Program-made: the position numbers and the translations under genes | In this document: positions 32,058 to 63,936 of the stretch, piece by piece | Layout of the letters: every line of letters starts with the position of its first letter | Position numbering within the stretch: the first letter of the stretch is position 1 | DNA from: Gammaproteobacteria bacterium | Lineage (GTDB): Bacteria; Pseudomonadota; Gammaproteobacteria; Pseudomonadales; Halieaceae | Direction: 5' to 3' | NCBI GenBank assembly: GCA_024742415.1 | Contig: JANSYN010000008.1 | Coordinates: 62,001 to 126,000, forward strand | DNA length: 64,000 nt | Notes under the pieces: generated by a model | Seen by the model: only the letters and a program-made list of their open reading frames with translations | Told to the model about the DNA's origin: nothing | The model's database searches: none

Positions 32058-32061
32058 TCCT

Positions 32062-38317: not shown

Positions 38318-39775
38318 ATGAAGAAAATACTTCCCGTGGCAGTCCTCGCTGCAATGGCCGGTGTTAACGGGGCGCAAGCCGTTTACGTTGACTCGGACGG
38401 GCTGGGTCAGGTGCTGTTGTATCCTTACTACACGACTACTGAAGGTCAGGACACATACATCAACCTGGTTAATACCACCGATCGGTACAAGGCGGTCAAG
38501 GTTCGTATTCTTGAGTCTATGAACAGCCGTGAAGTACTCGACTTTAACCTCTACCTGTCACCGTGGGATCACTGGTCAGCAGTTATCACAGCTGACACTG
38601 ACGGCCCCGGCGCGACAATCACTTCAGCAGATACAAGCTGTACGGTTCCAAACCAGATCTCTGATGGTGTCACAGTTCCTTTCCGTAACTTCGAATACGA
38701 CGATGATTCAGTGAATGGTCTCGAGCGTACCAAGGAAGGTTACGTTGAAGTGATCGAGATGGCGACTATCGTCCCTGGAGCTGAGAACTGGCCTGCTGAT
38801 ATCAAGCACGTTGCAGGTACGCCTCCTGGCTGTGGAGATCTGCAGGATTCCTGGATCGCCGGTGGCGTATGGTCTACCGACCCTAACGACGGCACCAGTG
38901 CTCCCTCAGGCGGTCTCTATGGCTACGGCGTTCTGATTAACGTTGACGAAGGCACAAACGCAACTTACGACGCAATTGCCCTCGGCGACTTCTTTGACGA
39001 TATCGCTGGTGTTCTGCACACTGAGCCAGGCAGCCTTGATCCTTCGCTGAACAACTCAAGTGCCAGCTACGCCGTGATCAACGGTAGTGAAGTGATTCTC
39101 GGTCAGGCCGACGACGGTCTGGACGCTGTTAGCGCAATCATGATGCACGACACTCTGTCGAACGACTTTGTTATGGAGCCCACAATTGCTGCTGGCACCG
39201 ACTGGGTTGTAACTTTCCCAACCAAGCGTGACTATGTTGCGGTTGACCCTGCGATTGCACCGTTCACTGATCCCTGGGATCCCACAACTTCTAACTCATG
39301 CGAAGAGTTCACTATCCGCTACTGGGATCGTGAAGAAGGCGAGCCTACAGATCCTCCCGGTTCAATTGACTTCTCTCCGAAGCCTGATCCGGACGATCCC
39401 GATGTGCTGGCTCTCTGTGCGGAAGCTAACGTGGTGAGCTTCGCTGGTTCCGCTGGCGATGTTGATCTCGGAAGCAGTGTTCTGGCCGCTGACCCAGGCC
39501 GTAATGGCTTGACGTTCACTCTGGAAGACGGCTTCGCGAATGGCTGGGCCCGTATGGACTTCACCCTGATCAACAATGCTACTGACCCGCGTCCTGTATT
39601 GGAAGCTGGTGATAATAGCTTCGAAGGTTTGCCTGCAGTTGGTTTCGCAGTTCAGAAGTACGTTAACTCTACTCTTGAAGTAGACGGCGTAACTGTACTG
39701 TCTAACTACGCTGGCGCGGTGACTCATAAGTCTTCACGCTCTGCATCAAGCTCAAGCAGTGCTAGCATGCCTTAA
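38318..39775 (+). CDS. Exported protein of unknown function, Ser-rich C-terminus
   Basis: A 485-residue protein not assigned to a known family. It has a Sec signal peptide (MKKILPVAVLAAMAGVNGAQA, cleaved near residue 21), then a beta-rich secreted domain beginning VYVDSDGLGQVLLYPYYTTT, with four cysteines that could form two disulfides. The C-terminus is a short Ser-rich tail (SSRSASSSSSAS). Codon choice appears biased toward abundant-tRNA codons, and the gene has an AGGAG site and a strong terminator, suggesting high expression. It lies between the T2SS halves and next to a second exported protein, so it is a candidate secretion substrate; nothing in the sequence proves that. Confidence 0.75.
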   Translation: MKKILPVAVLAAMAGVNGAQAVYVDSDGLGQVLLYPYYTTTEGQDTYINLVNTTDRYKAVKVRILESMNSREVLDFNLYLSPWDHWSAVITADTDGPGATITSADTSCTVPNQISDGVTVPFRNFEYDDDSVNGLERTKEGYVEVIEMATIVPGAENWPADIKHVAGTPPGCGDLQDSWIAGGVWSTDPNDGTSAPSGGLYGYGVLINVDEGTNATYDAIALGDFFDDIAGVLHTEPGSLDPSLNNSSASYAVINGSEVILGQADDGLDAVSAIMMHDTLSNDFVMEPTIAAGTDWVVTFPTKRDYVAVDPAIAPFTDPWDPTTSNSCEEFTIRYWDREEGEPTDPPGSIDFSPKPDPDDPDVLALCAEANVVSFAGSAGDVDLGSSVLAADPGRNGLTFTLEDGFANGWARMDFTLINNATDPRPVLEAGDNSFEGLPAVGFAVQKYVNSTLEVDGVTVLSNYAGAVTHKSSRSASSSSSASMP

Positions 39776-39811
39776 TGCAGGCTGAGCTTTAAGCTCATCT
39801 GTTCAGGTAAG

Positions 39812-39842
39812 AAAAAACGCGGCGAAAGCCGCGTTTTTTTTT
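39812..39842 (+). terminator. Rho-independent terminator after the exported-protein gene
   Basis: A GC-rich stem GCCGCG/CGCGGC with a GAAA tetraloop and a following run of nine T, 37 bases after the stop codon. It is one of the strongest terminators in the window. Confidence 0.9.
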
Positions 39843-39995
39843 GCCAGTCACCGTGGCAACCTAGTTACTGAATAGAGAGTCCGCAGCCAGGTTTTTATAA
39901 TTATAAGGAACGACTGTAACTGGGAACCCTGTCACAGTTTTAAGGTCGAACGGGTTGGAAGACACCTCAAAATTATGAAAGTGACATATTACCAA

Positions 39996-40077: not shown

Positions 40078-40818
40078 ATGTTGAAGAAGCTTTTTGTGCC
40101 AGCCGTTGCCGCATTGGCCCTCGCCCCTTCTACCGTGCTCGCCGATATTATTCTCAATGGTGATCCAGTGAGTGAGTACACTGTGACCAGCGTGGGTAGT
40201 GACATCATCATCACTGCGGTGTTTCAGGACCCTACTGATCCGACGGACCCTACCGATCCTACCGATCCTACCGACCCGACTGATCCTACGGATCCTACAG
40301 ACCCAACCGACCCAACAGATCCTACTGATCCGACCGACCCAACTGATCCTACAGACCCGACAGACCCAACAGACCCAACCGATGCTTGTGGTGAATTGCC
40401 CTCGAACGTTACGGTCACTGGTCCAGTGGATTGGGCGAACCCTCCAGGACAAACACGTATCGGTCTGAACAGGAACCAGATCAAGGCAACGCCTTTCACT
40501 ACAACAGATAGTTCAGACTACGGCGGCCAGATATCAATCGCCGCCACTACGGGAACGTCAGGCATCCAGCGACGTGTTTGGCTGTCTGAGTGTCCTGGTG
40601 GTGAGCCAATCCCGTTCAACCCGTTCGTCTCACAGAGCGAACCGTGTGAGGACTTTGGCACCAGCTCTACCGTCGTGCGATGGTTCCAGGGGCCGCCAAC
40701 GTCTGGCTACTGTAAGTTGAGGAAGAACTACAATTACTACTTGAACATCAAGAACACCAACTGTTCATCAGGTAATTGTGATGTGTTCAGGAACCTCTAC
40801 AACAATGGGGAATCCTGA
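40078..40818 (+). CDS. Exported protein with 17 Asp-Pro-Thr repeats, unknown function
   Basis: A 246-residue protein, not recognised. A signal peptide (MLKKLFVPAVAALALAPSTV, cleaved near 22) is followed by a short linker, then 17 perfect DPT triplets (residues 51-101), then a C-terminal domain of about 145 residues with six cysteines (C-GELP, ECPGG, EPCED, YCKL, NCSSGNC), enough for three disulfides. The DPT stretch would be an extended acidic spacer, and each repeat offers a Thr that could be O-glycosylated; both are inferences. The repeat codons vary (gat/gac, cct/ccg/cca, act/acc/aca/acg), so it is not a recent simple expansion. An AGGAG-like site precedes the ATG. Probable surface or secreted protein. 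Confidence 0.75.
   Translation: MLKKLFVPAVAALALAPSTVLADIILNGDPVSEYTVTSVGSDIIITAVFQDPTDPTDPTDPTDPTDPTDPTDPTDPTDPTDPTDPTDPTDPTDPTDPTDPTDACGELPSNVTVTGPVDWANPPGQTRIGLNRNQIKATPFTTTDSSDYGGQISIAATTGTSGIQRRVWLSECPGGEPIPFNPFVSQSEPCEDFGTSSTVVRWFQGPPTSGYCKLRKNYNYYLNIKNTNCSSGNCDVFRNLYNNGES
40228..40380 (+). repeat. 17-copy 9-bp repeat encoding Asp-Pro-Thr
   Basis: Seventeen consecutive 9-bp units each encode Asp-Pro-Thr without any substitution at protein level, while third codon positions vary among the copies. The pattern shows selection on the peptide rather than on the DNA. The tract ends with Asp before a Cys-containing domain. Confidence 0.95.
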
Positions 40819-40858: not shown

Positions 40859-40859
40859 G

Positions 40860-40889
40860 GCGCCAAACTTCGGTTTGGCGCTTTTTTTT
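40860..40889 (+). terminator. Rho-independent terminator after the DPT-repeat gene
   Basis: The stem GCGCCAAAC/GTTTGGCGC with loop TTCG is followed by eight T. It ends 11 bases before the start codon of the parvulin gene, whose GGGGTGA site directly follows the T-run, so the next gene must use its own promoter or readthrough. Confidence 0.92.
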
Positions 40890-40900: not shown

Positions 40901-41806
40901 ATGCAACATAAACTGAAACCGCTACTGTTGGGTTGTGCAATATGGGCCTTGAGCTCCGCAGGTGTCGCGCAACAAAATACGTCCGACCGATTGGTTCTGG
41001 ATTCGCCCAGGGCCACTGTCAGCGTGGAGGACATAGAACGGTATATGCAGGAAAACCTGCCTAAAGACGAAAATCAGCGCGCGTCAGTGCTCAACCGTCC
41101 TGATGTTTTTAAGGAGATGGCCGAGTCGCTGTACGTCGTTCGCGCGCTCGCCGCCGAGGCGGAGTCTGTACCTGGGTTTGATGAGAAGCAGGCCCGATGG
41201 GCGGCCAATATGGCCTATCAGCGGAAGCTGGTTCACGATTACAAACGCATCTACATCGCGGGATTATTCAAGGATGTGAATTGGGATGTCGCCGCCCTCG
41301 AGCACTATAACGCGTCTCCAGAGAAGTACATGCAGCAAGAAACCGTATCGGCATCACATATACTGATAAGGGTCAAGGACAGAACAGATGAGGAAGCCAG
41401 GAAACTCATCGAGGGACTGTACACACAGATAGCAAACGGAAGTGACTTTGCAGAATTGGCAAAGGAGTTTTCGGAAGATGGAACCGCCTCCAGAGGGGGA
41501 ACCTTAGGTTACTTCCAACGCGGAAAAATGACACCAGAGTTTGAAAAAGTCGCCTTTGAACTTGAGAAGGCTGGCGAGGTTAGCAGGCCGGTCAAAACTC
41601 CCTTTGGCTACCATCTGATTAAGTTGGACGATAAAAAGCCTGAGCAGCGTATACCTTTCAGTGAAGTGAAGCCGCGAATCATAAAGAGCTTGAGGGCTGC
41701 CAAGGGCGACCAGGCATGGCAGGACAAAGTTATTCGTTTACGATCTGCACAAGACGTTAAGCTTGATGAGAAAGTGTTGAAGCGACTCGAGACGACACTT
41801 AAGTAA
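40901..41806 (+). CDS. Periplasmic peptidyl-prolyl isomerase, parvulin type
   Basis: A 301-residue exported parvulin. It begins with a signal peptide (MQHKLKPLLLGCAIWALSSA) and has a helical N-terminal chaperone-like part (about 30-145) and one parvulin domain (about 150-245) with SASHILIRV, GGTLGYFQRGKM and VKTPFGYHLIKL. SurA and PpiD-type enzymes assist folding of secreted or outer-membrane proteins. It directly follows the gene for the Pro-rich DPT-repeat protein, so it may help that protein or the neighbouring exported protein fold. The start ATG at 40901 lies just past a terminator. Confidence 0.86.
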   Translation: MQHKLKPLLLGCAIWALSSAGVAQQNTSDRLVLDSPRATVSVEDIERYMQENLPKDENQRASVLNRPDVFKEMAESLYVVRALAAEAESVPGFDEKQARWAANMAYQRKLVHDYKRIYIAGLFKDVNWDVAALEHYNASPEKYMQQETVSASHILIRVKDRTDEEARKLIEGLYTQIANGSDFAELAKEFSEDGTASRGGTLGYFQRGKMTPEFEKVAFELEKAGEVSRPVKTPFGYHLIKLDDKKPEQRIPFSEVKPRIIKSLRAAKGDQAWQDKVIRLRSAQDVKLDEKVLKRLETTLK

Positions 41807-41893: not shown

Positions 41894-43321
41894 ATGAACC
41901 TGTCGCTCGATAAAGCGACGCGCAGGCCGTCTTTGGTCATTGTGCGTGAACAAGATGCCGTGCCCCATTGCGATAACGTCAGCGCAGGCGCGGCATACCT
42001 TGTTGTCTATCGCTTTGTGGAGACATGGCCCAATGACGGCTTTGCATCCTGGGTGATAGAAGAGTCAGTGCAGACCCTGCTCGTGGACGTAACAAGCGAT
42101 TGCCGCGAGCTGTCAGGTTCTTTCAAACACCAGGCGCTAAATCGCATCGTAGCGCAGGCCCTGATACGTCAGCAGGCAGACTGTCTGGTCGTAGAGGGTC
42201 TCTGGGGTTGTACACAGGATCTGCCCAGAGTCGCTGATTTACTGGGTATCCCAGTTATTGCCGTTATCGGCCCCGAACAGCCTAACAGGCAAGACGGCCT
42301 GCCAACTCGGGCAGAACGTAGTCTTGTGGAGTCTTTCAGGCGTTGTTCCGCCGTTTTGCTTCCCGAGGGCGTAAGTGCCGCAAGGGAGGCTTTAAAGGAC
42401 TTGCCCGGTGGTGTTGTCGCCGGATACGGAGCGCTACCCCAAAAGCTCAATGAGATAGCTTCCCTAGCTAAGGGTGCGCGCGCCTTCAGTTACAGTATCT
42501 ATGAGTTCCTGCAACGTGACCCTGCGTTGCTTGCAGCTATGCAGGCGCCTGATGTGCGACATTTCGTTGACTGCAGGCAGATTCTGGACGTTGCTTGTGG
42601 TGCGGGAATATTTTTGGACTGCCTTCGCGCAAGCAACCTGCAGGCAGTAGGTGTAGAACGAGACCCGCTGATCGCAGAATACGCCAGGGGAATGGGTTTG
42701 ACGGTGGTTGAACAGGATGCGATTGAGTTTCTGGCGACGACGCAGGAGACCTATGATGGCGTTTACTGCTCGCATTTTGTAGAGCATCTCCCCATGGACG
42801 TGTTGCAGGACTTCATCACCGCCCTACACGGGGTGATAGAGGTCAATGGCATCCTGGTGCTCTCGTTTCCGGATCCCGAATCGATACGTTCGCAGTTGCT
42901 TGGATTCTGGCGAGACCCGGAGCATGTGCGCTTTTATCATCCCGAACTGATTACCTCTCTTGCTATTGCGGCGGGATTTGAAGTGGAGTGGAGTAGCTAC
43001 CATGACCAGCCGCATGCGATAGCACCATTTAGTATTGAACCCGAGCCATTGCCGGATGTAGCAGATATGCCGTTGCCAAATATTGACCCCGAACAATTGT
43101 CTTTCAGAGACCGTTTGCTCATCGCCCTGGGTATACAGCCTGTCAGCAGACAGCAGCTCGCAGAGTCGGCCTTGTTGCAGTGGTCCCAGGAGGTAAGGCG
43201 CACGGTTCGCCAGCACCAGTCGTATCTCGAGCAACTGGCACAGCGAACAGAATCACTTTGGGCCGTGAATCGTACCTGGGCATGGAATGATAATGTTACG
43301 CTGCGGCTGCGACGACGTTGA
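41894..43321 (+). CDS. Two-domain protein with C-terminal SAM methyltransferase
   Basis: A 475-residue protein. The N-terminal half (about 1-200) resembles an N-terminal glycosyltransferase-B half (VVEGLWGCTQDLPRVADLLGIP), without the nucleotide-binding half. From about 215 it is a class I methyltransferase: SAM motif ILDVACGAGIF near residue 230, then VEQDAIEF and YDGVYCSHFVEHL. The C-terminus ends in a basic Trp-containing stretch (WAWNDNVTLRLRRR). Likely role: methylating a sugar or peptide group of the exported glycan. The acceptor is not known. It begins the glycan-gene group between the two T2SS halves. Confidence 0.72.
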   Translation: MNLSLDKATRRPSLVIVREQDAVPHCDNVSAGAAYLVVYRFVETWPNDGFASWVIEESVQTLLVDVTSDCRELSGSFKHQALNRIVAQALIRQQADCLVVEGLWGCTQDLPRVADLLGIPVIAVIGPEQPNRQDGLPTRAERSLVESFRRCSAVLLPEGVSAAREALKDLPGGVVAGYGALPQKLNEIASLAKGARAFSYSIYEFLQRDPALLAAMQAPDVRHFVDCRQILDVACGAGIFLDCLRASNLQAVGVERDPLIAEYARGMGLTVVEQDAIEFLATTQETYDGVYCSHFVEHLPMDVLQDFITALHGVIEVNGILVLSFPDPESIRSQLLGFWRDPEHVRFYHPELITSLAIAAGFEVEWSSYHDQPHAIAPFSIEPEPLPDVADMPLPNIDPEQLSFRDRLLIALGIQPVSRQQLAESALLQWSQEVRRTVRQHQSYLEQLAQRTESLWAVNRTWAWNDNVTLRLRRR

Positions 43322-43373: not shown

Positions 43374-44588
43374 ATGACACTGAACCGACACGTCTACACC
43401 AGCATTACTTCGAACTACCTGCCCAAGGCGCGTGTGCTGGCCGAATCAGTGAAGCGGGCCGACCCCAATACGATGTTCCACCTGGTTTTATCAGACAGCT
43501 TGCCTGTTGGCTGGGAGGCGACGTCAGAGCCATTTGACTCAGTCATTTATGCGCACGATCTGGTCACGGAGCGTTTTCATAGCTGGGCATTCGGCCACTC
43601 TGTGGTAGAGATGTGTACGGCGGTCAAAGGGGTCGCCCTTGAGTACATTTTTAGCGAGCACTCGGCCGACCAGGTATTTTACTTTGATCCTGACATGGTC
43701 GTGTTCTCGCGTCTTGATGATCTCAGTGAACAGCTTGCTATGTGTAGCATCGTACTGACGCCTCACTTGACGGACCCAGACCCTACTGACATGGGCATTC
43801 AAGATAACGAACTTGCAAGCCTGATACACGGGGTCTTCAACCTTGGTTTTCTTGGAGTGCGTAATGTGCCCGAAGGCAGGCGCTTCTCGCGGTGGTGGGC
43901 GAGCCGCTTGCTTGACTACTGCCACGACGATATTCCCCGCGGCTTATTCACTGATCAGAAGTGGGTTAATCTTGCGCCCTGTTTTTTTGACGACGTAGGC
44001 GTTCTGAGGTCGCCGGCATTTAATGTTGCCACCTGGAACCTGGCCACCCGTAAAGCCACGGGTAGTCTTGAGGATGGTATCTGCATTAATGGCGAGCCGT
44101 TAGGCTTCTATCACTTCTCGGGTTTTGACAGTGGTGATCAAATCACCATGTTGGAGCGCTACGGTAAAGATAGCCCCGTGCTCTATGCACTGCGGCAGTG
44201 GTACATTGCAGAGTGTGAACGCCATGGCCAATCCGCACTTGGTAAACTTCCGTCGCGTTATGCTGCTTTTGACAATGGCGAGACCATTAAAAATGAGCAG
44301 CGTATTTTGTATCGCCAACGCATAGATCTGCAACGTGCTTTCCCCAATCCGTATCAGGCGCAGGGCACAGGATCCTACAAGGCATGGTATGACGCTCATC
44401 CCGAAGAGCACCCTGCCAGCGGCTCCGTGGCCGTCCAGCCGGGAGTCCCTATGGCGGCTGTACTCGAAGATCTGGCAAGATATTTCAATAGCCAGTTAGT
44501 AACTGGTGTCGCCAGAACGAGAGTCAAAAGAGCGGTGCTCCGACTCTGGATCAAGTTTCTGATGCTGGCTGCGGCCGTTGCCAGGTGA
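43374..44588 (+). CDS. GT-A-type glycosyltransferase (paralogue 1)
   Basis: A 404-residue protein with a DxD-type metal motif FYFDPDMVVF (Asp105, Asp107). It resembles GT8-like or related enzymes that transfer hexoses using UDP-sugars, but its family number is not certain. It is a close paralogue of the gene at 46962: both share TSITSNY, PKARVLA, VVE(M/L)CTAVKG, GLFTDQKW and FYHFSG. No signal peptide was seen. Translation is followed directly by a GT4 gene with a strong GGGGGAGG site. Likely works in the same glycan pathway as its neighbours. Confidence 0.78.
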   Translation: MTLNRHVYTSITSNYLPKARVLAESVKRADPNTMFHLVLSDSLPVGWEATSEPFDSVIYAHDLVTERFHSWAFGHSVVEMCTAVKGVALEYIFSEHSADQVFYFDPDMVVFSRLDDLSEQLAMCSIVLTPHLTDPDPTDMGIQDNELASLIHGVFNLGFLGVRNVPEGRRFSRWWASRLLDYCHDDIPRGLFTDQKWVNLAPCFFDDVGVLRSPAFNVATWNLATRKATGSLEDGICINGEPLGFYHFSGFDSGDQITMLERYGKDSPVLYALRQWYIAECERHGQSALGKLPSRYAAFDNGETIKNEQRILYRQRIDLQRAFPNPYQAQGTGSYKAWYDAHPEEHPASGSVAVQPGVPMAAVLEDLARYFNSQLVTGVARTRVKRAVLRLWIKFLMLAAAVAR

Positions 44589-44628
44589 GCATTCGATTGC
44601 CGCGCGATCCGCTCAGGGGGAGGCCCCA

Positions 44629-46860
44629 GTGATTGCAGACAGGCGCCTGGCGAGCGAGTGGAGGGTCGTGCTTGTAGTGCCGGCGCATAATGCCTTGCCA
44701 TCGACCGCGCAGCTCGATGCGCTTATCGGCACCACGCTTACCCGTCATATTTCCATTGTGCTCCCTGACACCGGGCAAGCCCATGATTGGGCGCAGGGGC
44801 TTGTTTCTGATGTTGAACTGGATGTTCAGTGTGTGCTTCCAGCAGAAATTCATGATGGCGGTTTATGGTCACAGGTCCTGCGCTGTCAAACATTTAGTGA
44901 TGAGCTTCTGATCTATGTGCTTGCTGGCAGCCGCGTGCCGATTCATTGGGATGCCAGGTTAGTGGCGGCGCATCAGCGCAGTGGCAAGCAAGCGGTGGTA
45001 TCGCCGATGGGTGTCAGGCACCCGTTCCTAAGTGCCTTTACTACTGCGTCACATACACCGGGCCTTACAGCTGACGCAGTTGACCAATGGTTGAATGATT
45101 ACTCCGATGGTCGCGAGCTGCCAGTGCCTGTGGTTTCGCCTAGTTGCTTTCTCATATCAACTGCCCTGGCCGAATTGTTGTATGTAGACAGTGACGAGCT
45201 GCTAGCGGCGGCTGTTCGTGCTGTAGGCGGCGAGACGGTGATGTCGACACAGCTTTATGTTGATGATTCGCGAGCGGTTCCGCAGGTTGTTGTCGAGCAA
45301 ACGCCCGTGGCCTATCGCGAGGCGTTTCAGGAACAGTCCATGTTGGGCGGCCTGCGACATGCGCTCACGGAGTTATCATCACGCGGCGAAATACCGGGGC
45401 AGCTTCGAGGCTGCCTGCCCGTGCAGTTACATGTTGGTCACAGCTGGGGGGGTGGGCTTGCCCGGTGGATGGAAGACTACACCGTCGCCGATAATGCTCA
45501 CCATCACCTGATACTTCGATCAATCGGCGATCTTGGCGGCTTTGGCCGATCGATAGGATTGTACGCTGGCGCGCAAAGCCCAAACCCCATACGCGTGTGG
45601 AAGTTCAGTGAGCCTGTGCTCTCCATTCATGGTGGTAATCTGGAATACCGGGCGATTCTTGGCGATATCATTGCGCAATACCGTGTAGAGTCGATAGTTG
45701 TTTCCTCCCTGATTGGCCATTCACTGGACTTGCTGCGCACCGGGCTACCCACGACACTTGTGCTGCATGAGTTTTTCCCTTTTTGCCCTGCTCTGTATGC
45801 GACCTTTGATTCGCCGTGTCGCTCCTGTGATGCAGAGCGACTGACACAATGCATGCAGCACAATCCGAAAAACGAATTCTTCAAACACGAACCGGTTGCG
45901 CACTGGCTGAACATACGTGAGGCGTTCTTGAACTTGCTTTTGGAGCGAAAGCCAACACTGGTGGCGCCAAACCAGTCAGTGGTCGATCGTTACACCGAGT
46001 TGGAACCTCGCCTCAAGAGCCTTCCATTGCACGTGGTGCCGCATGGGCTCGACCCAGTCCTGTCACGGGCATTGTCTGCGGTGAGATCCGGCAGGGTAGA
46101 TCGCGTTCGTGATCGATTGCAACTGGTGATGTTGGGCCGGTTGACCCGGGAAAAGGGCGGTGAGTTGCTGCTGTCCATGTTGCCGGCGCTGCGCGATATT
46201 GCAGATATCTATTTGCTGGGCACAGGTGAAAGTGGCGGCGCGTTTGAGGGTGTGCCCGGTGTCGAGGTCGTGCGGTCGTACAGCCGCGAAGAACTGCCAG
46301 GCCTGCTAGCGCGAGTCCAGCCAGATGTCGGCCTGCTCCTATCAACCGTGCCGGAAACGTTCAGCTACACGCTCAGCGAGCTTTGGGCCGCCGGCATCCC
46401 GGTGGTGGCGACCCGACTCGGTGCGTTTGAGGAGCGCGTAGAAGAGGGCGTGACAGGGTGGTTGGCAGACCCTGTCGCCGAACAGTTGCTCGCCCGCTTG
46501 CAGCAGTTGCAAGTCGACAGGTCAGTGCTGCGACGCGCTTCACAGGCCCTGCAGCAAGTGTTGCCTGCCTCTGCCGCAGACATGGTTGAGAGCTACCACC
46601 AAATTTTGCCGCAAAGCGAAGGTATTCCATTGCAACGCTACTATCGTCCCCGAGCCAGCTACATGAACCCCTATGCAATGGACTCCGCTGCGACCGCCCC
46701 GCAATTGATAGTAGACCCGCAAATGAGTTACCGCATGGCACTTGCGGATTTTCTTCAATACTCTGCAACCAAAGTGGGTAACTCCCCCAAAGTTAATCGC
46801 TCTCTGGGCGACTATTGCGCACGCGTGCTGCGCTATGTCGCCCGCGCAATGAGAGCATAA
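44629..46860 (+). CDS. Large GT4-type glycosyltransferase
   Basis: A 743-residue protein. The N-terminal ~330 residues resemble a GT2-like, partly degenerate domain, and residues about 330-680 a GT-B glycosyltransferase (GT4): VVMLGRLTREKGGELL near 497 and the retaining-enzyme pattern PETFSYTLSELWAAGIPVVA near 574, which holds the E-x7-E catalytic pair. I chose the GTG at 44629, preceded by GGGGGAGG at ideal spacing, instead of the TTG at 44578. It lies between two paralogous GT-A genes, suggesting a small assembly line. The sugar and acceptor are unknown. Confidence 0.75.
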   Translation: MIADRRLASEWRVVLVVPAHNALPSTAQLDALIGTTLTRHISIVLPDTGQAHDWAQGLVSDVELDVQCVLPAEIHDGGLWSQVLRCQTFSDELLIYVLAGSRVPIHWDARLVAAHQRSGKQAVVSPMGVRHPFLSAFTTASHTPGLTADAVDQWLNDYSDGRELPVPVVSPSCFLISTALAELLYVDSDELLAAAVRAVGGETVMSTQLYVDDSRAVPQVVVEQTPVAYREAFQEQSMLGGLRHALTELSSRGEIPGQLRGCLPVQLHVGHSWGGGLARWMEDYTVADNAHHHLILRSIGDLGGFGRSIGLYAGAQSPNPIRVWKFSEPVLSIHGGNLEYRAILGDIIAQYRVESIVVSSLIGHSLDLLRTGLPTTLVLHEFFPFCPALYATFDSPCRSCDAERLTQCMQHNPKNEFFKHEPVAHWLNIREAFLNLLLERKPTLVAPNQSVVDRYTELEPRLKSLPLHVVPHGLDPVLSRALSAVRSGRVDRVRDRLQLVMLGRLTREKGGELLLSMLPALRDIADIYLLGTGESGGAFEGVPGVEVVRSYSREELPGLLARVQPDVGLLLSTVPETFSYTLSELWAAGIPVVATRLGAFEERVEEGVTGWLADPVAEQLLARLQQLQVDRSVLRRASQALQQVLPASAADMVESYHQILPQSEGIPLQRYYRPRASYMNPYAMDSAATAPQLIVDPQMSYRMALADFLQYSATKVGNSPKVNRSLGDYCARVLRYVARAMRA

Positions 46861-55467: not shown

Positions 55468-57680
55468 GAGCAGTAGATGTAGTAATACCCGTTTACGACG
55501 GTCTGCAGGAAACTATCGCCTGCCTGGAGTCAGTTTTGCGGACGGTGAACTACCCCTGGGCGCGAATCATTATCATCAATGACGGCTCGCCCAACCCTGA
55601 AATATGCGCTCACCTTGTTGCGGTGGCCGAGCGCAACCCCGGCGTCGTACTGCTTGAGAACGAGTCAAATCTCGGCTTTGTGGCAACCGTGAACAGGGGT
55701 ATGGCCTACGACCCCAATCGTGATGTTTTGCTGCTCAATAGTGACGTAGAAGTGGCCGGAGACTGGCTACACAGGATGCGCACGGCGGCCTATCATCATG
55801 AAAAAGTGGCTTCTGTCACCCCCTTTTCCAACAACGCCACGGTCTGCAGCTTTCCCGATATCTGTGAAAACAACCCCTTGATTTTTGGGCTGGGGCCCGA
55901 GGAAATCGACAGCGCATTCAACGCGGAGTTTGATGTCGATGATGTCTTCCAACTGCCCACGGGTGTGGGTTGTTGCATGTACCTGATGCGCGATTGCCTT
56001 GATGTGATCGGCTTCTTTGACGTCGAGTCGTTTGGCCGCGGCTACGGCGAAGAAAACGACTGGTGCCAACGTGCTGAAAGTGTTGGCAGGCGCAATCTCC
56101 ACCTGGCTAACTGTTTCGTGTTTCATCATGGCGGTGTCAGTTTTCGGGAAGAGCACAGCCCACGGCTGGCCGATGCTCTGGACGTGCTGGATAAGAAGTA
56201 TCCGCGCTATCACGGCGAAATACAGAGCTTTATTGCCCGCGACCCCGCAAGGGAGGCAAGGGTGCGCGGCTGGTTGCATTTGTTTGCAACGCAGGACAAG
56301 CCGAAGATACTCCTGGTGTGCCACAAGCTTGGCGGTGGCGCGCAGCAGCATGTAGATGAACTGGCGCGCGTGTTGGGCGACAGTGGGCTGTTCCTGCTCT
56401 TGGTGCCGGACAAGGACGGGCACTCGATCAGGTTATCCTGCTTTGACGGCAGGCATCGATTGCGCGATGGATTGTTCTTTGATGCCGGGGGCGCAGAGTA
56501 CGATAAACTCGTGACCTTGCTGCGCGGCCTTGGTCTTGGTCGAATTCACTACCATCATACTTTGGGCTTGCCTGACAAATTACTTTACCTGGCAGAAGAC
56601 GTTGGCTGTGAGTTCGACGTTACTATCCATGATTATTACCTGGTCAACGCAAACGCGACCCTGACCGATTCCCAGGCCAGGTTTGTCGACGAGGGCGCAG
56701 CTGACTTCGAAGAGCGCTGTGCACAGAATATCAAGCTGCCCGAACCTGTTGATCTTGAAAATTGGCGGTCGGCGCAAGCACAGTGGATAGCTGCCGCGGC
56801 GCGCACGATATTCCCGTCCGTGGATTGCAAAAACAGGTTCCTGAAGTTCTATGACGTGCAGAACCCGGTGGTAGCATGGCACCCGGATTTCAGCGAGGCG
56901 AAGGCGTACCCCCTGCCAGGCTGGCGTTTCCCCAGTCATCGCCCCTTGCGCGTGGTGGTCATAGGTGCTTTAAGTCGGGAGAAAGGCGCAGACGTTCTCG
57001 AGGCGGCTGCCAACGCTCTGGTCGCTGAGCCCATAGAATTTCACCTGCTGGGCTATGCCTACCGTCGTCTTGGCAATAACGTCGTTTTCCATGGCCCGTA
57101 CGATAGTCATGACGTGCACGCCTTGATCGATAGAATCAACCCGGATGTTGCCTGGTATCCGGCCCAGTGGCCGGAAACCTACAGTTATACGCTAAGCGTT
57201 GCCTTGGAAAAGGCATTGCCCGTGGTGGTGCCGGACATCGGCGCGTTTGTCGAGCGTGTGCAGGGTCGACCCTTCAGTAGCATTGTCCCCTGGGATTTCA
57301 GTGCGGCGCAGTGGAAAGACTACTGGCTTGGAGTATTGCATGCACAGCAGCTGCCGGCACAGAACGCGTTGGCATCGGCGCGTACAAGCGCGCCCGATCT
57401 GGCGGCGGAGGTGGACCGGGATTTTTACGCGGCAGCGTATGTACAGGCCGTGCCGCTGCGACCTGCAGCGCCAAGTGCAGAGTTGCTGGGTAACCTGCAA
57501 AGTAATCTGGTGGCCGACAGCCAGAATCTATCGCGCTCGGAGCGCTTGTTGCGTGCCATATGGCGCTTGTCCTTGCGGCCGTCCGCGGCGCGGCTGATCG
57601 CAATGGTGCCGTTCCGCATTCAGCGCACGATAAAGCGCTCCCTGTCACAGCGACCAATGCATGACATTGTCGGGGAGTAA
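55464..57680 (+). CDS. GT2-GT4 fused glycosyltransferase
   Basis: A 738-residue bifunctional protein. Residues 1-270 are a GT2 domain (VVIPVYDGLQETIACLESVL, NSD at 92-94, GRGYGEENDW), a paralogue of the gene at 52928. Residues about 278-640 are a GT4 domain, starting LLVCHKLGGGAQQHVDELAR, with GALSREKGADVLE near 498 and PETYSYTLSVALEKALPVVV near 570. The C-terminal tail is basic with WRLSLRP. Such fusions let two consecutive sugar transfers occur on one polypeptide. The start ATG overlaps the sulfotransferase stop. The acceptor is unknown. Confidence 0.82.
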   Translation: MRAVDVVIPVYDGLQETIACLESVLRTVNYPWARIIIINDGSPNPEICAHLVAVAERNPGVVLLENESNLGFVATVNRGMAYDPNRDVLLLNSDVEVAGDWLHRMRTAAYHHEKVASVTPFSNNATVCSFPDICENNPLIFGLGPEEIDSAFNAEFDVDDVFQLPTGVGCCMYLMRDCLDVIGFFDVESFGRGYGEENDWCQRAESVGRRNLHLANCFVFHHGGVSFREEHSPRLADALDVLDKKYPRYHGEIQSFIARDPAREARVRGWLHLFATQDKPKILLVCHKLGGGAQQHVDELARVLGDSGLFLLLVPDKDGHSIRLSCFDGRHRLRDGLFFDAGGAEYDKLVTLLRGLGLGRIHYHHTLGLPDKLLYLAEDVGCEFDVTIHDYYLVNANATLTDSQARFVDEGAADFEERCAQNIKLPEPVDLENWRSAQAQWIAAAARTIFPSVDCKNRFLKFYDVQNPVVAWHPDFSEAKAYPLPGWRFPSHRPLRVVVIGALSREKGADVLEAAANALVAEPIEFHLLGYAYRRLGNNVVFHGPYDSHDVHALIDRINPDVAWYPAQWPETYSYTLSVALEKALPVVVPDIGAFVERVQGRPFSSIVPWDFSAAQWKDYWLGVLHAQQLPAQNALASARTSAPDLAAEVDRDFYAAAYVQAVPLRPAAPSAELLGNLQSNLVADSQNLSRSERLLRAIWRLSLRPSAARLIAMVPFRIQRTIKRSLSQRPMHDIVGE

Positions 57681-57743
57681 GGTAGTGAACAAGCCGTTGA
57701 ATATTCTCGCCTGTCAGTGCGTTGCTCACTCGAGCGACAGCGC

Positions 57744-58994
57744 ATGACGCAGGTCAGTAATCCGGGCTTTGCTGCCTATCTGAACAGACGCATAGTGATT
57801 TGCGTATTCACCGGCTTTGCCTCGGGCATGCCCCTTTATGTGCTTTTTCAGCTCATGCCTGCCTGGCTCAGTGATGGTGGAGTATCGATTAAGGAGATCG
57901 GCCTGTTTTCACTGGCGACCATACCGTATACGTGGAAGTTCATCTGGGCGCCAGTGATGGATCGGTGGGTTCCGCCGTTTTTGGGCCGACGCAGGGGTTG
58001 GATGATCCTCATGCAGGTTCCCTTGTTACTGTTTATTGGCGCGCTTGGCATGTTTGAGCCGGCAAAGTCTATCTGGTTGATCGCCTGGCTGGCATTGGGT
58101 ATCGCGTTCTTCAGCGCCAGCCAGGATGTCGTGCTCGATGCCTATCGGCGCGAGATTCTCCCGGACCGTGAACTGGGCCTGGGTAATTCGGTGCACATTA
58201 CCGCATACCGTGTATCGAGCCTGGTTCCCGGTTCGCTGTCGTTGATCCTGGCAGACGGCATCTTGCCGTGGAGTGTCGTGTTCTGGATTACGGCGGCCTT
58301 CATGTTGGTGGGGGTTGGCTTGAGTCTTGCTGTAAAGGAGCCTGATACAGAAATTCCACCGCCAAAACACTTTGGGGAGTTTGCGGTAGCGCCTTTTCTG
58401 GAGTACCTCGAACGCCGTGGTTGGAGCAAACTACTGCTGATTCTGTGCTTCATGTTCCTGTATAAGCTCGGCGATAACATGGCAACTGCTCTGGCTGTAC
58501 CGTTTTATCTGGATATCGGGTTCACCAAGACTGAAGTTGGCCTGGTGGCCAAGCATGCTGCGCTGTGGCCGGCGATCTTCGGTGGCATCCTCGGCGGTGT
58601 CCTGATGATCCGCATTGGCATCAACAAGGCGCTGTGGTTTTTTGGCGTGGTGCAGGTTGTCAGTATTCTCGGGTTTGCGGTGCTCGCTGATACCGGCCCG
58701 GTGCTCTGGCTTCTGGCTGCTGTGATCAGTTTCGAGTATCTCGGGGTGGGGCTTGGCACGGCAGCCTTTACGGCGTTTATAGCGCGTGAAACCAGCAAAG
58801 TGTATGCCGCCACGCAGTTCGCCCTGTTTACCGCACTGGCGGCGGTGCCGCGCACTCTTGCTAACGCAAGCACCGGGTTTTTTGTGGAGGCAATGGGTTG
58901 GTATTCGTTTTTCCTGCTGTGCGCATTGTTGGCCCTGCCTGGCATGTTGCTATTGTTTTGGGTGGCACCCTTTCGCGCCGGAAATCAGGAATGA
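57744..58994 (+). CDS. AmpG-like MFS permease
   Basis: A 416-residue polytopic membrane protein with about 12 hydrophobic helices. It has the AmpG-like opening FASGMPLYVLFQLMPAWLSD, KFIWAPVMDRWVPPFLGRRR and SASQDVVLDAYRREILP, which are signatures of muropeptide permeases. AmpG imports anhydro-muropeptides during peptidoglycan recycling. Its place among glycan-modification genes could mean a different substrate, but the family match is good. I chose the ATG at 57744; an in-frame GTG at 57717 would add nine residues. It lies 63 bases after the GT2-GT4 gene. Confidence 0.83.
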   Translation: MTQVSNPGFAAYLNRRIVICVFTGFASGMPLYVLFQLMPAWLSDGGVSIKEIGLFSLATIPYTWKFIWAPVMDRWVPPFLGRRRGWMILMQVPLLLFIGALGMFEPAKSIWLIAWLALGIAFFSASQDVVLDAYRREILPDRELGLGNSVHITAYRVSSLVPGSLSLILADGILPWSVVFWITAAFMLVGVGLSLAVKEPDTEIPPPKHFGEFAVAPFLEYLERRGWSKLLLILCFMFLYKLGDNMATALAVPFYLDIGFTKTEVGLVAKHAALWPAIFGGILGGVLMIRIGINKALWFFGVVQVVSILGFAVLADTGPVLWLLAAVISFEYLGVGLGTAAFTAFIARETSKVYAATQFALFTALAAVPRTLANASTGFFVEAMGWYSFFLLCALLALPGMLLLFWVAPFRAGNQE

Positions 58995-59115
58995 GAAGAT
59001 GCTCTAAAACACTGGCGGCGGTTGCGTGGTTGGGCGTAAATCGGGATGATGTGCGGCGCCGGCGCCGCTGTGGCGCCGCGTGGGATTCGCCAGGGCGATA
59101 ACTTGGGCGCAAGGC

Positions 59116-59859
59116 ATGGGAGTGGATGTGAGTTCTGAGGAAGGTGCGCAAGGCGTACAGTTGGCTGCACTACCTGAGCATGTGATAGGCGTGCTGGGCA
59201 TGCATCGAAGCGGCACCAGCTGTCTTACGGGAACCTTGCAATCTGCGGGCCTGTTTCTTGGTGAGCACCACACGTGGAACCACCACAATCACAAGGGTAA
59301 TCGCGAAAACCAGAGTATTGTCGACATTCACGAAGCAGTGCTGGCAGCCAATGGCGGTGCATGGGACAAGCCTCCCTCCACTGCGCGATGGAGCGCGCAG
59401 CAGTTGGAGATGATTCGCCATTTGCTGCAGCAGCACAGCCAGGAAAAATATTTCGGTTTCAAGGATCCGCGTGCATTGCTCTTGCTCGACGGGTGGAAGT
59501 CCGTCTGTCCGGACATCTCCTTCGTGGGAATTTACCGACACCCGAATGCGGTGGCGGCTTCTTTGCGACAGCGCAATGACAAAAGCAAACGCGAGTGCCT
59601 GGCGTTGTGGTACGCGTATAATCGTGCGCTGCTGGATGAGTATGAGAAATCCCCGTTCCCGATTCTGAGCTTTGATGAAGACGAGTCAGTGCTCGATGCG
59701 AAAATTCTTGAGGTGGCACAGGAGCTGGGTCTACCCGGGCGTGCCGCTGATGACAAGTTCTACAGCCCGGAGTTGCGCCACAATGCTGGCCGTGGCGCAA
59801 TCTTGTTGCCAGCTAAGTATCGCAATCTGTATAAGCATCTCAAGTCACTGAGTCGTTGA
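59116..59859 (+). CDS. Sulfotransferase-family protein 2
   Basis: A 247-residue protein with the phosphosulfate loop VLGMHRSGTSC near residues 26-36 and GIYRHPNAVAASLRQR for the 3'-phosphate region. It is shorter than sulfotransferase 1 and ends just after the core fold (NAGRGAILLPAKYRNLYKHLKSLS). The start is not clear: a GTG at 59080 is possible, but the ATG at 59116 is nearer the domain. The spacer before it contains a 16-bp perfect palindrome. Likely role: sulfating a glycan or other surface polymer together with the first enzyme. Confidence 0.78.
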   Translation: MGVDVSSEEGAQGVQLAALPEHVIGVLGMHRSGTSCLTGTLQSAGLFLGEHHTWNHHNHKGNRENQSIVDIHEAVLAANGGAWDKPPSTARWSAQQLEMIRHLLQQHSQEKYFGFKDPRALLLLDGWKSVCPDISFVGIYRHPNAVAASLRQRNDKSKRECLALWYAYNRALLDEYEKSPFPILSFDEDESVLDAKILEVAQELGLPGRAADDKFYSPELRHNAGRGAILLPAKYRNLYKHLKSLSR

Positions 59860-59868
59860 TGGACGATC

Positions 59869-60861
59869 ATGTTGAGTAAGAAAAGGCAGGGCAGGCAGCG
59901 CCTTTTTGCGCGCAGGGCAAGGCTTTCCGGGCCTGCGCTGAGTATCATTTTGATTGTCTATGACATGCCAGCCCAGGCCCAGAGAACTGTGCGTTCCCTG
60001 CTGCATGGTTATCAACGCGACGTTGCCTCCTGGGATTATGAGCTGTTGATTATCGAGAACGCGTCGGCCAATACGCTGCCGCGCTCCTTCGTTGACTCAC
60101 TGCCTCCCTATTGTTCCTACTTTTTGCGCGATGAAAGCAGGCCAACCCCCGTGCCCGCCATCAACGAAGGTCTGCGCCTGGCCAGGGGCCGAAACCTGTG
60201 TGTAATGATCGACGGCGCGCGACTGGTGACTCCCGGTGTGGTCAAGAACCTCATCAGAGGCCACCAGATTTCCGACCAGGCCGTCGTTACGGTGCCCGGA
60301 TACCACCTGGGCAAGGAACTGCAGCAAGTCGCCGTGGGCAGCGGTTATTCCAGCGAGTTTGAAGATGAACTGGTCGCCTCCATCAACTGGCCTGAAGACG
60401 GCTATCGTCTGTTTGAGATTGCCTGTTTTAGTGGGTCCTGCGCCCACGGCTTTTTTCTACCCCACAGCGAGAGTAACTGTATCAGCCTGCCCAGAAAGAT
60501 GTGGCACGAGTTGGGCGGTTTCGACGAACGTTTCGACCTGCGAGGCGGCGGCCTGGTCAACCTGGACACGTACAAGCGGGCCTGCGAGCATCCTGGCGCC
60601 CAGCATGTTTTCCTGCACGGCGAGGGAACCTTCCACCAGTTTCATGGTGGGGTGACAACCGGCGGCGAGGACTCACACGTCCGCCAGCGCTACATTGACG
60701 AGAGTATGCAGCAGTATGCTGACCTGCGCGGAGCCAGTTATGAAAGCCCACAGACAGACCCTGTCTACCTTGGAGAATTGTCCGACTATGTGCAGCAGTT
60801 TGTCTTTCTTTCCACACAGAAAAAGCTCGATCGAATGCGTATGATGGAAAGCAACCGCTAA
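59869..60861 (+). CDS. GT2-like glycosyltransferase
   Basis: A 330-residue protein in the GT-A/GT2 class. It has LSIILIVYDMPAQAQRTVRS, the nucleotide-binding start ELLIIENASAN, and CVMIDGARLV (around residue 112) in the place of the metal motif, then GGFDERFDLRGGG for the acceptor-side loop. The first DxD Asp is replaced (MIDGAR), so catalysis may differ. It starts nine bases after the sulfotransferase stop on the same strand, so it is in the same operon. A methyltransferase follows. Confidence 0.7.
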   Translation: MLSKKRQGRQRLFARRARLSGPALSIILIVYDMPAQAQRTVRSLLHGYQRDVASWDYELLIIENASANTLPRSFVDSLPPYCSYFLRDESRPTPVPAINEGLRLARGRNLCVMIDGARLVTPGVVKNLIRGHQISDQAVVTVPGYHLGKELQQVAVGSGYSSEFEDELVASINWPEDGYRLFEIACFSGSCAHGFFLPHSESNCISLPRKMWHELGGFDERFDLRGGGLVNLDTYKRACEHPGAQHVFLHGEGTFHQFHGGVTTGGEDSHVRQRYIDESMQQYADLRGASYESPQTDPVYLGELSDYVQQFVFLSTQKKLDRMRMMESNR

Positions 60862-60914
60862 TGCAGGCAAATCGCTATTGCGCCAGAAACCTTTGACCCA
60901 GGAAGCACTGACCC

Positions 60915-61703
60915 ATGCAGAACTCGATTTATTTCCCGCCCTCGCTCCAACGCTTTGAGCCCAAGCGCATGGTGTTTAGTACCTGGGTCGACCACCTGTG
61001 CTTCGCCTACGATTTGATCGAGACCCTGCGCCCGCAGATCACCGTGGAGCTGGGGGTTTACAATGGCTTGTCTTTCTTCACCTTTTGTCAGTCGATGGTT
61101 GAGAACGACGTCGAGGGTGTTGCTTATGGCATCGATTGCTGGGAAGGAGATGAGCATACCGATTCCTATGACGACTCCATCTACCAGGACGTGGCAGAAC
61201 ACGCGCGCGCCAATTACCGCGGTATGACCTATCTGCTGCGTATGTTCTTTAACGAAGCGCTGCAGCACTTCGAGACGGACTCCATCGACCTTCTGCATAT
61301 CGACGGGCTGCACACGTACGAAGCGGTACAGGAAGATTTCACCAACTGGTATCCCAAGGTGAAGCCAGGTGGGATAGTGCTGTTTCACGACGTCATGGCG
61401 CGTATCAAGGATTTTGGCGCCTGGAAGTTCTTCGAGGAGCTGGAGGCCTCGCATGATGAGGTCTTCAGGTTCAATCATGGATTTGGCCTTGGCGTCTTGC
61501 GCAAGCCAGGTGGTGAGCGCCGACCAAGCCAGTTGATGGACTTGATGTTCTCCAAGGATCCTGAAATTGAACATCGCCTGCGTCAGTTGTATGTTCATGC
61601 CGGCCTGTTTATTGAATCACGGCACAAAGCTGACCTGGTTCGCCAGGGGCGTAAAGGTATCAGGCTCGGTGGTGTCGGCAAGAAACAACCTGCGGCCGGG
61701 TAA
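60915..61703 (+). CDS. Class I SAM methyltransferase
   Basis: A 262-residue protein of the Methyltransf_24 type. The SAM-binding motif is VELGVYNGLSFF near residues 43-54, with IDCWEGDEH and LLHIDGLHTYEAVQEDF near 128-144 and WYPKVKPGGIVLFHDV following. Such enzymes methylate hydroxyl or amino groups on sugars and on small metabolites in polysaccharide loci. It lies 53 bases after the GT2-like gene and seven before a dioxygenase. The acceptor is not known. Confidence 0.82.
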   Translation: MQNSIYFPPSLQRFEPKRMVFSTWVDHLCFAYDLIETLRPQITVELGVYNGLSFFTFCQSMVENDVEGVAYGIDCWEGDEHTDSYDDSIYQDVAEHARANYRGMTYLLRMFFNEALQHFETDSIDLLHIDGLHTYEAVQEDFTNWYPKVKPGGIVLFHDVMARIKDFGAWKFFEELEASHDEVFRFNHGFGLGVLRKPGGERRPSQLMDLMFSKDPEIEHRLRQLYVHAGLFIESRHKADLVRQGRKGIRLGGVGKKQPAAG

Positions 61704-61709
61704 CGGCCA

Positions 61710-62897
61710 GTGAACCACGGCAGTTCAATCAAGGATGCGGACGCCCCGGTGAATCTGGCAAACCTGCCGCAGGAATTGCGCGCCCCGGCGCAGGAGATTG
61801 AAGCGCTGATTGCACAGGGTCAGTTCGAGGCCGGTATTGCAAGCATGCAAAAACTGGCCCGCTCCAGTGGTGACCCCGTGTTGATGTTACGCCTGATAGC
61901 GCTGCGCGCGCAGGGTCTGAAACAGGCGATGCAACCGCTCGAACTGCAACCCATGTACGATGCGAGTGCGCACCTGGACGACCCCGATGCGCTGCAGGCC
62001 CGCCTTTCACGCGACGGTTACCTGTTCCTGCGCGACGTCATTCCAGCGCAGGCCCTGCGTCAACTGCGCAAGCAGATCACCACGATACTCGCGGACGAAG
62101 GCTGGATTGAAGGCGGTGACAAGCAGGATGAAGCCCTCGCTGTCAGCCGTCCGCGCCGGGAGGGGCAGCGCAGGTATTTTCAGGCCCATGATCGTATTAT
62201 CCGGCTCGAGGCGCTGCACAGCCTTGCACACAACAATGCGCTGATGGCCCTGATGCGCAATGTACTTGGCCCAAGTGTATTTCCTCATCCCCTCAGTATT
62301 GTGCGGTTGGTCTTCCCGCAAAGTCCGGAGCTGGCCACGCCGCCGCATCAGGATTATCCCAACAACCAGGGCACCGCAGACCTCACGGCGGCCTGGATTC
62401 CGCTTGCTGATTGCCCGATACAGCAGGGTTCGCTGGCGGTTCTTGAAGGCTCACACAAGTTTGGCGTGCTGCCGCTGAAGTTTCATTTGGGTGCCGGTAA
62501 CCGGCGCGCTGTGCTTGGCGAGCAACTGGCTGGCCTGCGCTGGGTGGGTGCAGACTTCAAGCTTGGGGATGTCTTGCTGTTCCCTTCATTGACCGTGCAC
62601 AAAGCCATGGAAAACCTCAGCAAGAGGAATATGCGGCTGTCGGTGGATTTTCGCTTTCAGCGCGAAGGCGAAGCGCTCACGAGCGGCTGCTTGCAACCGC
62701 ACTTTGAGCGCATCAGTTGGGAAGACATTTACCGCGGTTGGGAATCCACGCGTTACCAGTACTACTGGCAGAACAAGAACTACGTTGAAGTGCCGTGGAA
62801 CGCCGCCTTGCATGAGCTGCCGCCGGATCACTATGACGAGGCATATGAGCAGGAGATGGCGTTTAACCTGCTATTCAATGCGCGCAGTGAAGCCTAG
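61710..62897 (+). CDS. Phytanoyl-CoA-dioxygenase-family protein 1
   Basis: A 395-residue Fe(II)/2-oxoglutarate-dependent dioxygenase of the PhyH family. The metal motif PHQDYPNNQGTAD has His212 and Asp214, the distal His is in SLTVHKAME near 297, and NMRLSVDFRFQ carries the Arg that binds 2-oxoglutarate. The N-terminal ~90 residues are an extra helical part. The start is likely the GTG at 61710. Family members hydroxylate fatty acids, sugars or amino-acid side chains; in this glycan locus hydroxylation of a lipid or sugar is plausible. It starts seven bases after the methyltransferase. Confidence 0.8.
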   Translation: MNHGSSIKDADAPVNLANLPQELRAPAQEIEALIAQGQFEAGIASMQKLARSSGDPVLMLRLIALRAQGLKQAMQPLELQPMYDASAHLDDPDALQARLSRDGYLFLRDVIPAQALRQLRKQITTILADEGWIEGGDKQDEALAVSRPRREGQRRYFQAHDRIIRLEALHSLAHNNALMALMRNVLGPSVFPHPLSIVRLVFPQSPELATPPHQDYPNNQGTADLTAAWIPLADCPIQQGSLAVLEGSHKFGVLPLKFHLGAGNRRAVLGEQLAGLRWVGADFKLGDVLLFPSLTVHKAMENLSKRNMRLSVDFRFQREGEALTSGCLQPHFERISWEDIYRGWESTRYQYYWQNKNYVEVPWNAALHELPPDHYDEAYEQEMAFNLLFNARSEA

Positions 62898-62961
62898 GCG
62901 CATCGGCTGGTGCGCTGCGGCTCACGCGGCACTGGGGAATGGTTAGCGTGAGGTGCCTACA

Positions 62962-63936
62962 CTACCAAGCCAGTGGTATCTGATTTTTGGGAAAGCGGTC
63001 GGCGGCAAAAAACCAGGTTTCTATGGCGTATCTGGGGGTGTGGAAATGCTTGCCGAATTGCGTTCGGTGCAATAGGAAGTGGTCAAAAAAATAGGCATCC
63101 CCCGCATTGAATTGCGGGCTGGTGATGGCCGTTTCTCCCCTGTCGCGCGTGACTTGCGCCGTGCTTACCGACCAGTCAAATTGAGCGCCCTCGGCGCTGA
63201 CTATGGTTGCCAGGCGCTGGGGCAGCACGTCCAGTCCGGGTGAGCCGGTGCTACCTCCGCAGCTATTGAGGGGCAGCCACAGGTTGACGCTGTTGATATC
63301 AGTGCCCATGAACGCCCCGTCCTGATGCCAGCCCGCCTCAGCGACGGGCAGCCTGGAGCGTCGCAGCACCCACTTTTTGGCGCTCAGGCACGCCGGTTGC
63401 CCGAAGTAGTGCGTCAGCAGGGATTTCAGCCCCCGTGATTCGTACAGTTCCAGCAGGCATTCAGCAACAGAAGGCGCCTCTATGCACATCGCCGAGCCTG
63501 ACTCGCGATGAAAGCTGCGCGTATTTCCCAGTTCTCTTTCCCCTCGGGGCAAGATCTCTACGAGATTCTCCGGTGGGTCAAAATAGGTACGGTTTTCGGG
63601 CGGACGGCCCGCTTTAAAGTCATTGCAGCTTGCTAGCACATGATCAATCACCGGCAGCAGTGGTGCCAGTGCATCGGGTTGAAACAGTCCGCGCACGATG
63701 AGTGAACCATGGGCGAGCAGCGCCGTTTGCAACGTGGATGCGCTCAGTGCTTCCGCGGGAATCTCCGGGATTATGAGATCTGTCGGCTGCAAGCTTTGCT
63801 GCGGCTGTACCAGCAGCCTGGCCGCGCTATCGGGCATTCGCGCCCTGAACGCGTCCAGGCGTTGCTCGATAGCGCGCTTGTCCCTGTCGCTTGCTCTTGC
63901 TTCAAGTTGGCGGAAGGTGGTCGTTACTGGATTCAT
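62962..63936 (-). CDS. Phytanoyl-CoA-dioxygenase-family protein 2
   Basis: A 324-residue PhyH-type dioxygenase. The metal motif is WHQDGAF (His204, Asp206), with the distal FFDHFLLHRTQ region and a C-terminal Arg in TPRYAIETWF. It is convergent with the first PhyH gene and only distantly like it. The ATG at 63936 is the chosen start, but the frame stays open upstream to the window edge (Ser/Asn-rich), and there is no clear Shine-Dalgarno, so the true start may lie outside. Substrate unknown; likely the same general pathway. Confidence 0.72.
   Translation of the reverse strand: MNPVTTTFRQLEARASDRDKRAIEQRLDAFRARMPDSAARLLVQPQQSLQPTDLIIPEIPAEALSASTLQTALLAHGSLIVRGLFQPDALAPLLPVIDHVLASCNDFKAGRPPENRTYFDPPENLVEILPRGERELGNTRSFHRESGSAMCIEAPSVAECLLELYESRGLKSLLTHYFGQPACLSAKKWVLRRSRLPVAEAGWHQDGAFMGTDINSVNLWLPLNSCGGSTGSPGLDVLPQRLATIVSAEGAQFDWSVSTAQVTRDRGETAITSPQFNAGDAYFFDHFLLHRTQFGKHFHTPRYAIETWFFAADRFPKNQIPLAW

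Follow-up and report, generated by a model that had tools for sequence, protein, structure and literature searches.

A Halieaceae locus that likely makes an NpdA-type S-layer and exports it through an adjacent type II secretion system, with linked sugar genes

What is built by a locus in which two exported proteins, a folding helper and a set of sugar genes lie between the two halves of a type II secretion system (T2SS)? The question is raised by a 64,000-nucleotide stretch of a Halieaceae genome of 4.14 Mb (contig JANSYN010000008.1 of assembly GCA_024742415.1, positions 62,001 to 126,000; hereafter the window, in which all coordinates are counted from the first letter). The first-pass annotation had described two exported proteins, a folding helper, glycosyltransferases, sulfotransferases, methyltransferases and dioxygenases around a split T2SS, and this gene content was recovered with Pfam and NCBIfam, two of the PhyH- or sulfotransferase-like members lying under the cut-off. 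Its proposal of a secreted, sulfated and methylated glycoprotein layer with a dedicated T2SS holds in outline, since the larger exported protein is best placed in the known NpdA family of surface-layer (S-layer) proteins and GspD co-occurs with it; this core idea was already published, and the sulfated-glycoprotein part found no support. We consider it likely that a single locus makes an NpdA-type S-layer and exports it through the adjacent T2SS, the linked sugar genes most likely building the O-chain or other surface glycan under the lattice.

The 485-residue protein encoded at 38318..39775 (plus strand) is best identified, from homology and carrier species, as NpdA, an S-layer protein published since 2011. 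Relatives of it were found in Nitrincola alkalilacustris, Gilvimarinus agarilyticus, Gilvimarinus chinensis, Pseudoteredinibacter isoporae, Wenzhouxiangella limi and Rudaea cellulosilytica, all of which appear as npdA carriers in Table 3 of a 2023 paper that also reports npdA orthologs in Halieaceae, Halioglobus included, with gsp clusters adjoining npdA (PMC10765051). A contig of Halioglobus sp. NAT121 (PABK01000012.1) is among our named relatives, and the protein of R. cellulosilytica DSM 22992 (L182), one of the strains imaged in that paper, matches the window protein at 39% in the best segment. Cryo-electron microscopy of 16 further cultures revealed S-layers in all except one, Rudaea being among those examined, and the authors treat the NpdA make-up of these layers as a hypothesis (PMC10765051).

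The window precursor is acidic (51.4 kDa, isoelectric point 4.05), with a signal peptide judged by eye. It had no Pfam or NCBIfam family above the cut-off, no convincing relative among solved structures (best E = 1.2) and no match in phage records. The ATG at 38318 was preferred over a longer alternative frame from 38216 because the closest relative begins with the same residues. Among the 38 window genes tested, npdA shows the strongest codon bias (effective number of codons, ENC, 42.8 versus 60.3 expected), and an intrinsic terminator hairpin follows the gene (39806..39845, plus strand; -29.4 kcal/mol, z = -7.06), a combination as for an abundant protein. The hairpin was missed by the pattern scan; counts of promoter and terminator patterns in 37400-41000 were not above those of shuffles.

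We compared 57 genomes, the window's own included, which are mutually related and do not represent 57 independent trials. The 485-residue protein is encoded in 24 of them, and GspD matches at E < 1e-100 occur in exactly the same 24, the next best being 6.6e-71; every one of the 57 genomes has some secretin match, so that this strict co-occurrence depends on the GspD threshold. The two genes lie close together on one strand, 678 to 2181 bases apart, in 23 of the 24 genomes, and are on different contigs in the remaining one (G008). A same-genus relative, G014, has its NpdA match at 71042. In the window, gspD (35278..37488, plus strand; TIGR02517, 427.8 bits versus a cut-off of 351.35) is followed by a gene for a small lipoprotein (37488..37925, plus strand; lipobox judged by eye) that is weakly DUF4440-like (E = 0.0086, under the cut-off) and has no relative among solved structures.

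The arrangement extends to named genomes, in which 434 candidate stretches yielded 386 relatives; the best 80 were taken as named loci, a sample that leans towards the window's kind because the most similar were kept. A gsp homolog was found in 73 of these 80 loci, gspD in 61 and at least five gsp genes in 49. PpiC lies downstream of NpdA in 66, all of them among the 70 loci that offer 2.5 kb or more on that side, and 38 loci have a lipoprotein homolog upstream. Seven of the 80 loci have no gsp match, four of them having less than 800 bases upstream. NpdA is widespread but patchy, being encoded in 15 of 369 genomes of a class-wide sample. The first-pass annotation had described the link between the exported proteins and the T2SS as one of proximity only, a description superseded by the shared genomes, the adjacency and the conserved neighbors, and the T2SS is probably NpdA's own. 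A separate, dedicated T2SS is plausible since homologs of gspD, E, F and G also occur at a second locus of the genome; in all, this genome encodes two more secretins, one near gspE, F and G homologs and one without them. As a side observation, six Gilvimarinus loci (L115, L118, L119, L121, L133 and L134) show the order NpdA, companion (the second exported protein, described below), PpiC and gspE to gspM, with no gspD in the stretch covered. Separately, contig C77 of G012 (5729-12421; L028, L031 and L033) carries five clustered NpdA-like matches, one with an internal stop, besides the T2SS-adjacent copy.

The second exported protein of the window, 246 residues long (40078..40818, plus strand), is encoded between npdA and the gene for a PpiC-type periplasmic prolyl isomerase (40901..41806, plus strand; Pfam). 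A terminator, also found in the pattern scan, follows the gene of the 246-residue protein (40859..40889, plus strand; z = -3.58). This companion consists of a short N-terminal part, a (DPT)n linker encoded by a repeat in multiples of 9 bases, and a C-terminal domain in which six cysteines are conserved; across 20 sequences, three of them are invariant and the other three are present in at least 90%. We built a profile from 45 loci and searched it against plus-strand frames of at least 60 residues in the 80 loci and the window. It matched the window protein at 1.2e-32. Of 66 loci, 60 have a match in the interval from NpdA to PpiC (the misses being L127, L132, L173, L175, L177 and L182), and four further loci, where no PpiC was called, have one just after NpdA; no other such frame matched. 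Linkers vary among species and may be DPT, PT, Ser, Ig-like or thrombospondin-3-like. The companion gene is second in codon bias (ENC 45.7 versus 59.8 expected, a value distorted by the repeats), and solved structures gave no convincing relative of its product (best E = 0.0039, in the variable part).

Within the 57 genomes, strong companion matches (E <= 1.5e-13) are confined to six, those with the window type of NpdA. Four other matches are weak and three of these contain stops; in Halieaceae with the other NpdA type, PpiC directly follows NpdA. A second companion-like domain lies away from the NpdA locus in G012 (C21:6049-6507, E = 1.7e-43). Our literature search, which extended neither to most subscription journals nor to the supplements of PMC10765051, found no publication dealing with the companion or with npdA-linked sugar genes; the main text of PMC10765051 contains no "glycos", "isomerase" or "LPS", and either the companion or PpiC may be depicted in its supplementary figure S5. 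What apparently has not been described before is the companion and the way in which it is inherited together with the NpdA type and the glycosyltransferases.

Downstream of PpiC, the window carries five sugar genes on the plus strand: the methyltransferase MT475 (41894..43321; Pfam, with homologs in NpdA loci), the GT8-like glycosyltransferase GT404 (43374..44588; no Pfam match, named as a homolog of GT8_414), the group 1 glycosyltransferase GT760 (44578..46860; Pfam and locus comparison), the GT8-family GT8_414, a paralog of GT404 (46923..48167; Pfam), and a CmcI-type O-methyltransferase (48207..48851; Pfam and locus comparison). Many other loci have an ABC-2 permease, a Wzt_C-domain ATPase, a GT2 protein and a methyltransferase in this position. 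The DNA downstream of NpdA extends over at least 6 kb in 57 named loci, 47 of which had a glycan match (E <= 1e-8); by class, glycosyltransferases were matched in 45, Wzm in 38, Wzt in 39, methyltransferases in 40 and sulfotransferases in none. In the family, 19 of the 21 regions with at least 4 kb had a glycan match within 12 kb (the misses being G028 and G008c). By comparison, none of 20 control loci around other secretins, all from the same family, had one (17 with gspD, E, F and G homologs and three with gspD only). The six genomes with a strong companion match are also the only ones in which GT404 is matched at E < 1e-170; weaker relatives occur in G001 (45%) and, lower still, in three other-family genomes, and GT404 is without a match in seven genomes of the same genus that bear the other NpdA type. 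As a separate observation, one Halieaceae genome bearing the other type of NpdA encodes a 1,190-residue sulfotransferase-GT2-GT4 fusion after PpiC (L073:1963-5532).

From what the sequence shows, namely the gene content, the homology to the family, the strict co-occurrence with GspD and the conserved neighbors, we infer a route of secretion, a folding step, a lattice and an anchor. NpdA and the six-cysteine companion would enter the periplasm through Sec and be helped to fold there by PpiC. They would then leave the periplasm by way of the adjacent T2SS in the outer membrane, with GspD as the secretin and a GspE-powered pseudopilus of GspGHIJK, and would assemble into a lattice on the cell exterior. 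The product of the linked glycosyl- and methyltransferases is most likely the lipopolysaccharide (LPS) O-chain or a related surface glycan that bears the lattice. An LPS anchor is favored over protein glycosylation because Wzm/Wzt O-antigen exporters are common in NpdA loci and because NpdA assembly needed LPS in older work, as described in the 2011 paper (PMC3110197).

The NpdA loci of Delftia, Paracidovorax and other Beta- and Gammaproteobacteria share with the window an exported, acidic protein of roughly 52 kDa that lacks recognized domains and an adjoining gsp cluster (PMC3110197, PMC10765051), whereas the gsp cluster of the window is split by sugar genes. The Aeromonas S-layer, which the first-pass annotation had cited as a precedent, proved an apt one: in that A-layer system, VapA with the Sps T2SS, the S-layer gene directly follows the secretin gene, the T2SS is dedicated, and both lie inside an O-antigen cluster with Wzm/Wzt (PMC4483657, PMC4413209), which again favors an LPS anchor. 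VapA is likened to NpdA by gene arrangement; in contrast to the Aeromonas cluster, the window's showed no Wzm/Wzt exporter, with no Wzt_C in its genome, although homologs occur in the loci of its relatives (G013 has Wzm/Wzt homologs and G016 contains Wzt_C and ABC-2 genes). The Slr4 S-layer gene of Pseudoalteromonas tunicata, likewise compared by arrangement, also lies downstream of a T2SS cluster; however, the available part of its report mentions no companion or sugar genes (PMC7821379).

Several points weigh against our reading. The assignment to NpdA rests on carrier-species overlap, size, neighbors and homology rather than on an alignment to a published NpdA such as WP_011797163. In three named loci (L131, L155 and L159), no gsp homolog reached E <= 1e-6 although about 10 kb lies upstream; at this sensitivity they count as genuine exceptions. 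Ten of the 57 named loci lack a glycan match in the DNA covered, nine of them being Gilvimarinus or Pseudoteredinibacter, and the glycan queries were drawn from NpdA loci that were themselves counted (the window, L104 and L136, the latter two within the 57). No Wzt_C was found in the window's genome, so the O-antigen export route of the relatives is not present here in that form. Finally, a 2014 paper from the group of the 2011 study calls NpdA glycosylated.

This last point would fit an alternative with the same S-layer and T2SS, in which, in line with the glycoprotein idea of the first-pass annotation, the linked glycosyl- and methyltransferases act on protein, glycosylating NpdA itself or the companion's threonine-rich linker; we judge it unlikely. 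Wzm/Wzt also serves some Gram-positive S-layer glycans, the companion linker is Thr/Pro- or Ser-rich in several species, and GT404 tracks the window-type NpdA. NpdA migrates above 150 kDa versus about 52 kDa expected, which its authors read as an oligomer (PMC10765051). On the other hand, no oligosaccharyltransferase-like gene was recognized in the window, the three Wzy_C proteins of the genome being encoded on other contigs. Moreover, the Ig-like and thrombospondin-3-like linkers of other species mean that the companion has no conserved glycosylation site, and the Aeromonas parallel is an O-antigen cluster.

It is also improbable, in our view, that the sugar genes are merely neighbors, gathered and swapped as a block as surface-structure genes are, with no functional tie to NpdA. 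The block at the right is indeed such a case, as shown below, and the ten loci without a glycan match would fit as well, but such matches are absent from the 20 other secretin loci, and GT404 and the companion are at strong E-values confined to the six window-type genomes while the seven other-type genomes of the same genus lack them. The idea that the T2SS is a general one, with NpdA as just one of many substrates, seems to us more doubtful still. T2SSs often have many substrates. The T2SS requirement of NpdA had not yet been assayed in the 2023 paper (PMC10765051); however, close GspD orthologs occur only in the NpdA-bearing genomes among the 57, and the same genome has a second locus with gspD, E, F and G homologs.

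Going beyond an S-layer exported through its own T2SS, we tentatively suggest, as a possibility short of an even chance, that two proteins make up the NpdA coat and that a sugar partner is inherited with them. The companion would be a second T2SS substrate tethering the NpdA lattice to a particular O-chain, and its linker would be free to change in length and kind. Within one genus, the type of NpdA, the companion and the set of glycosyltransferases would be exchanged jointly, as a cassette. In many proteobacteria the NpdA locus carries more than the T2SS: a conserved exported companion, a PpiC helper and O-antigen-like genes are found there too. Should either the companion or the sugars prove necessary for the lattice, that would account for how a Gram-negative S-layer that lacks a known anchor stays on the cell, and would tie NpdA to the Aeromonas arrangement.

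The T2SS genes themselves lie in two halves (31039-37488 and 48971-52933), with the exported proteins, PpiC and the sugar genes between them. The left half comprises, besides gspD, gspI, gspJ, gspK, gspL, gspM (T2SSM_b) and a gspC-like gene (31039..35275, plus strand), and the right half gspE, gspF, gspG and gspH (48971..52933, plus strand). Components D, E, F, G, H, J, K, L and M are Pfam or NCBIfam matches, some of them weak: gspK (E = 0.00045) is under the cut-off and gspL was recognized via PilN. The gspC-like gene (E = 0.0027) is below the Pfam cut-off, and gspI was named by its pseudopilin motif and gene order. Nitrincola and most other Halieaceae have an unbroken run of gsp genes, whereas gspEFGH follow the inserted sugar genes in the window's clade, so the split looks like a derived state.

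To the right of gspH lies a GT2 gene (52928..54196, minus strand; Pfam), likewise placed in the window-type relatives G012, G013, G014 and G016, whose link to the system is uncertain. It is followed by a Halieaceae surface-glycan block (54427..63936, strand unspecified) that is not NpdA-specific, with two sulfotransferase-like proteins (one under the cut-off), the glycosyltransferase GT738 and an MFS protein, then a weak GT2, a methyltransferase, a PhyH protein and a second PhyH-like protein under the cut-off. Past the right edge of the window are two further GT2 genes and then housekeeping genes (fumarase, MurJ and a class I tRNA synthetase). MFS425 of this block matches 51 of the 57 genomes at E <= 1e-3 and is on a contig other than that of NpdA in G005, G013 and G016. 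Strong matches to the methyltransferase MT24_262 (E < 1e-90) occur in 12 of the 24 NpdA-positive and 5 of the 33 NpdA-negative genomes; in the NpdA-negative G001 and G009 it stands beside MFS425 with a sulfotransferase between, and G026, also NpdA-negative, has a strong homolog of the sulfotransferase-like ST346. We therefore rejected the whole interval as one system, as the first-pass annotation had tentatively taken it. The term "sulfated" is likewise unsupported, because the sulfotransferase, MFS and methyltransferase block occurs in relatives without NpdA and, in G016, on another contig. The part from about 57717 to the right edge is, judged from this distribution, a general cassette of the family; whether ST346 and GT738 belong to it is uncertain.

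To the left of the T2SS, 13363-30855 encodes acyl-CoA ligases, a CoA transferase, acyl-CoA dehydrogenases, a nitronate-monooxygenase-like protein and a thiolase in series, resembling a breakdown cluster for lipids or, more tentatively, steroids.

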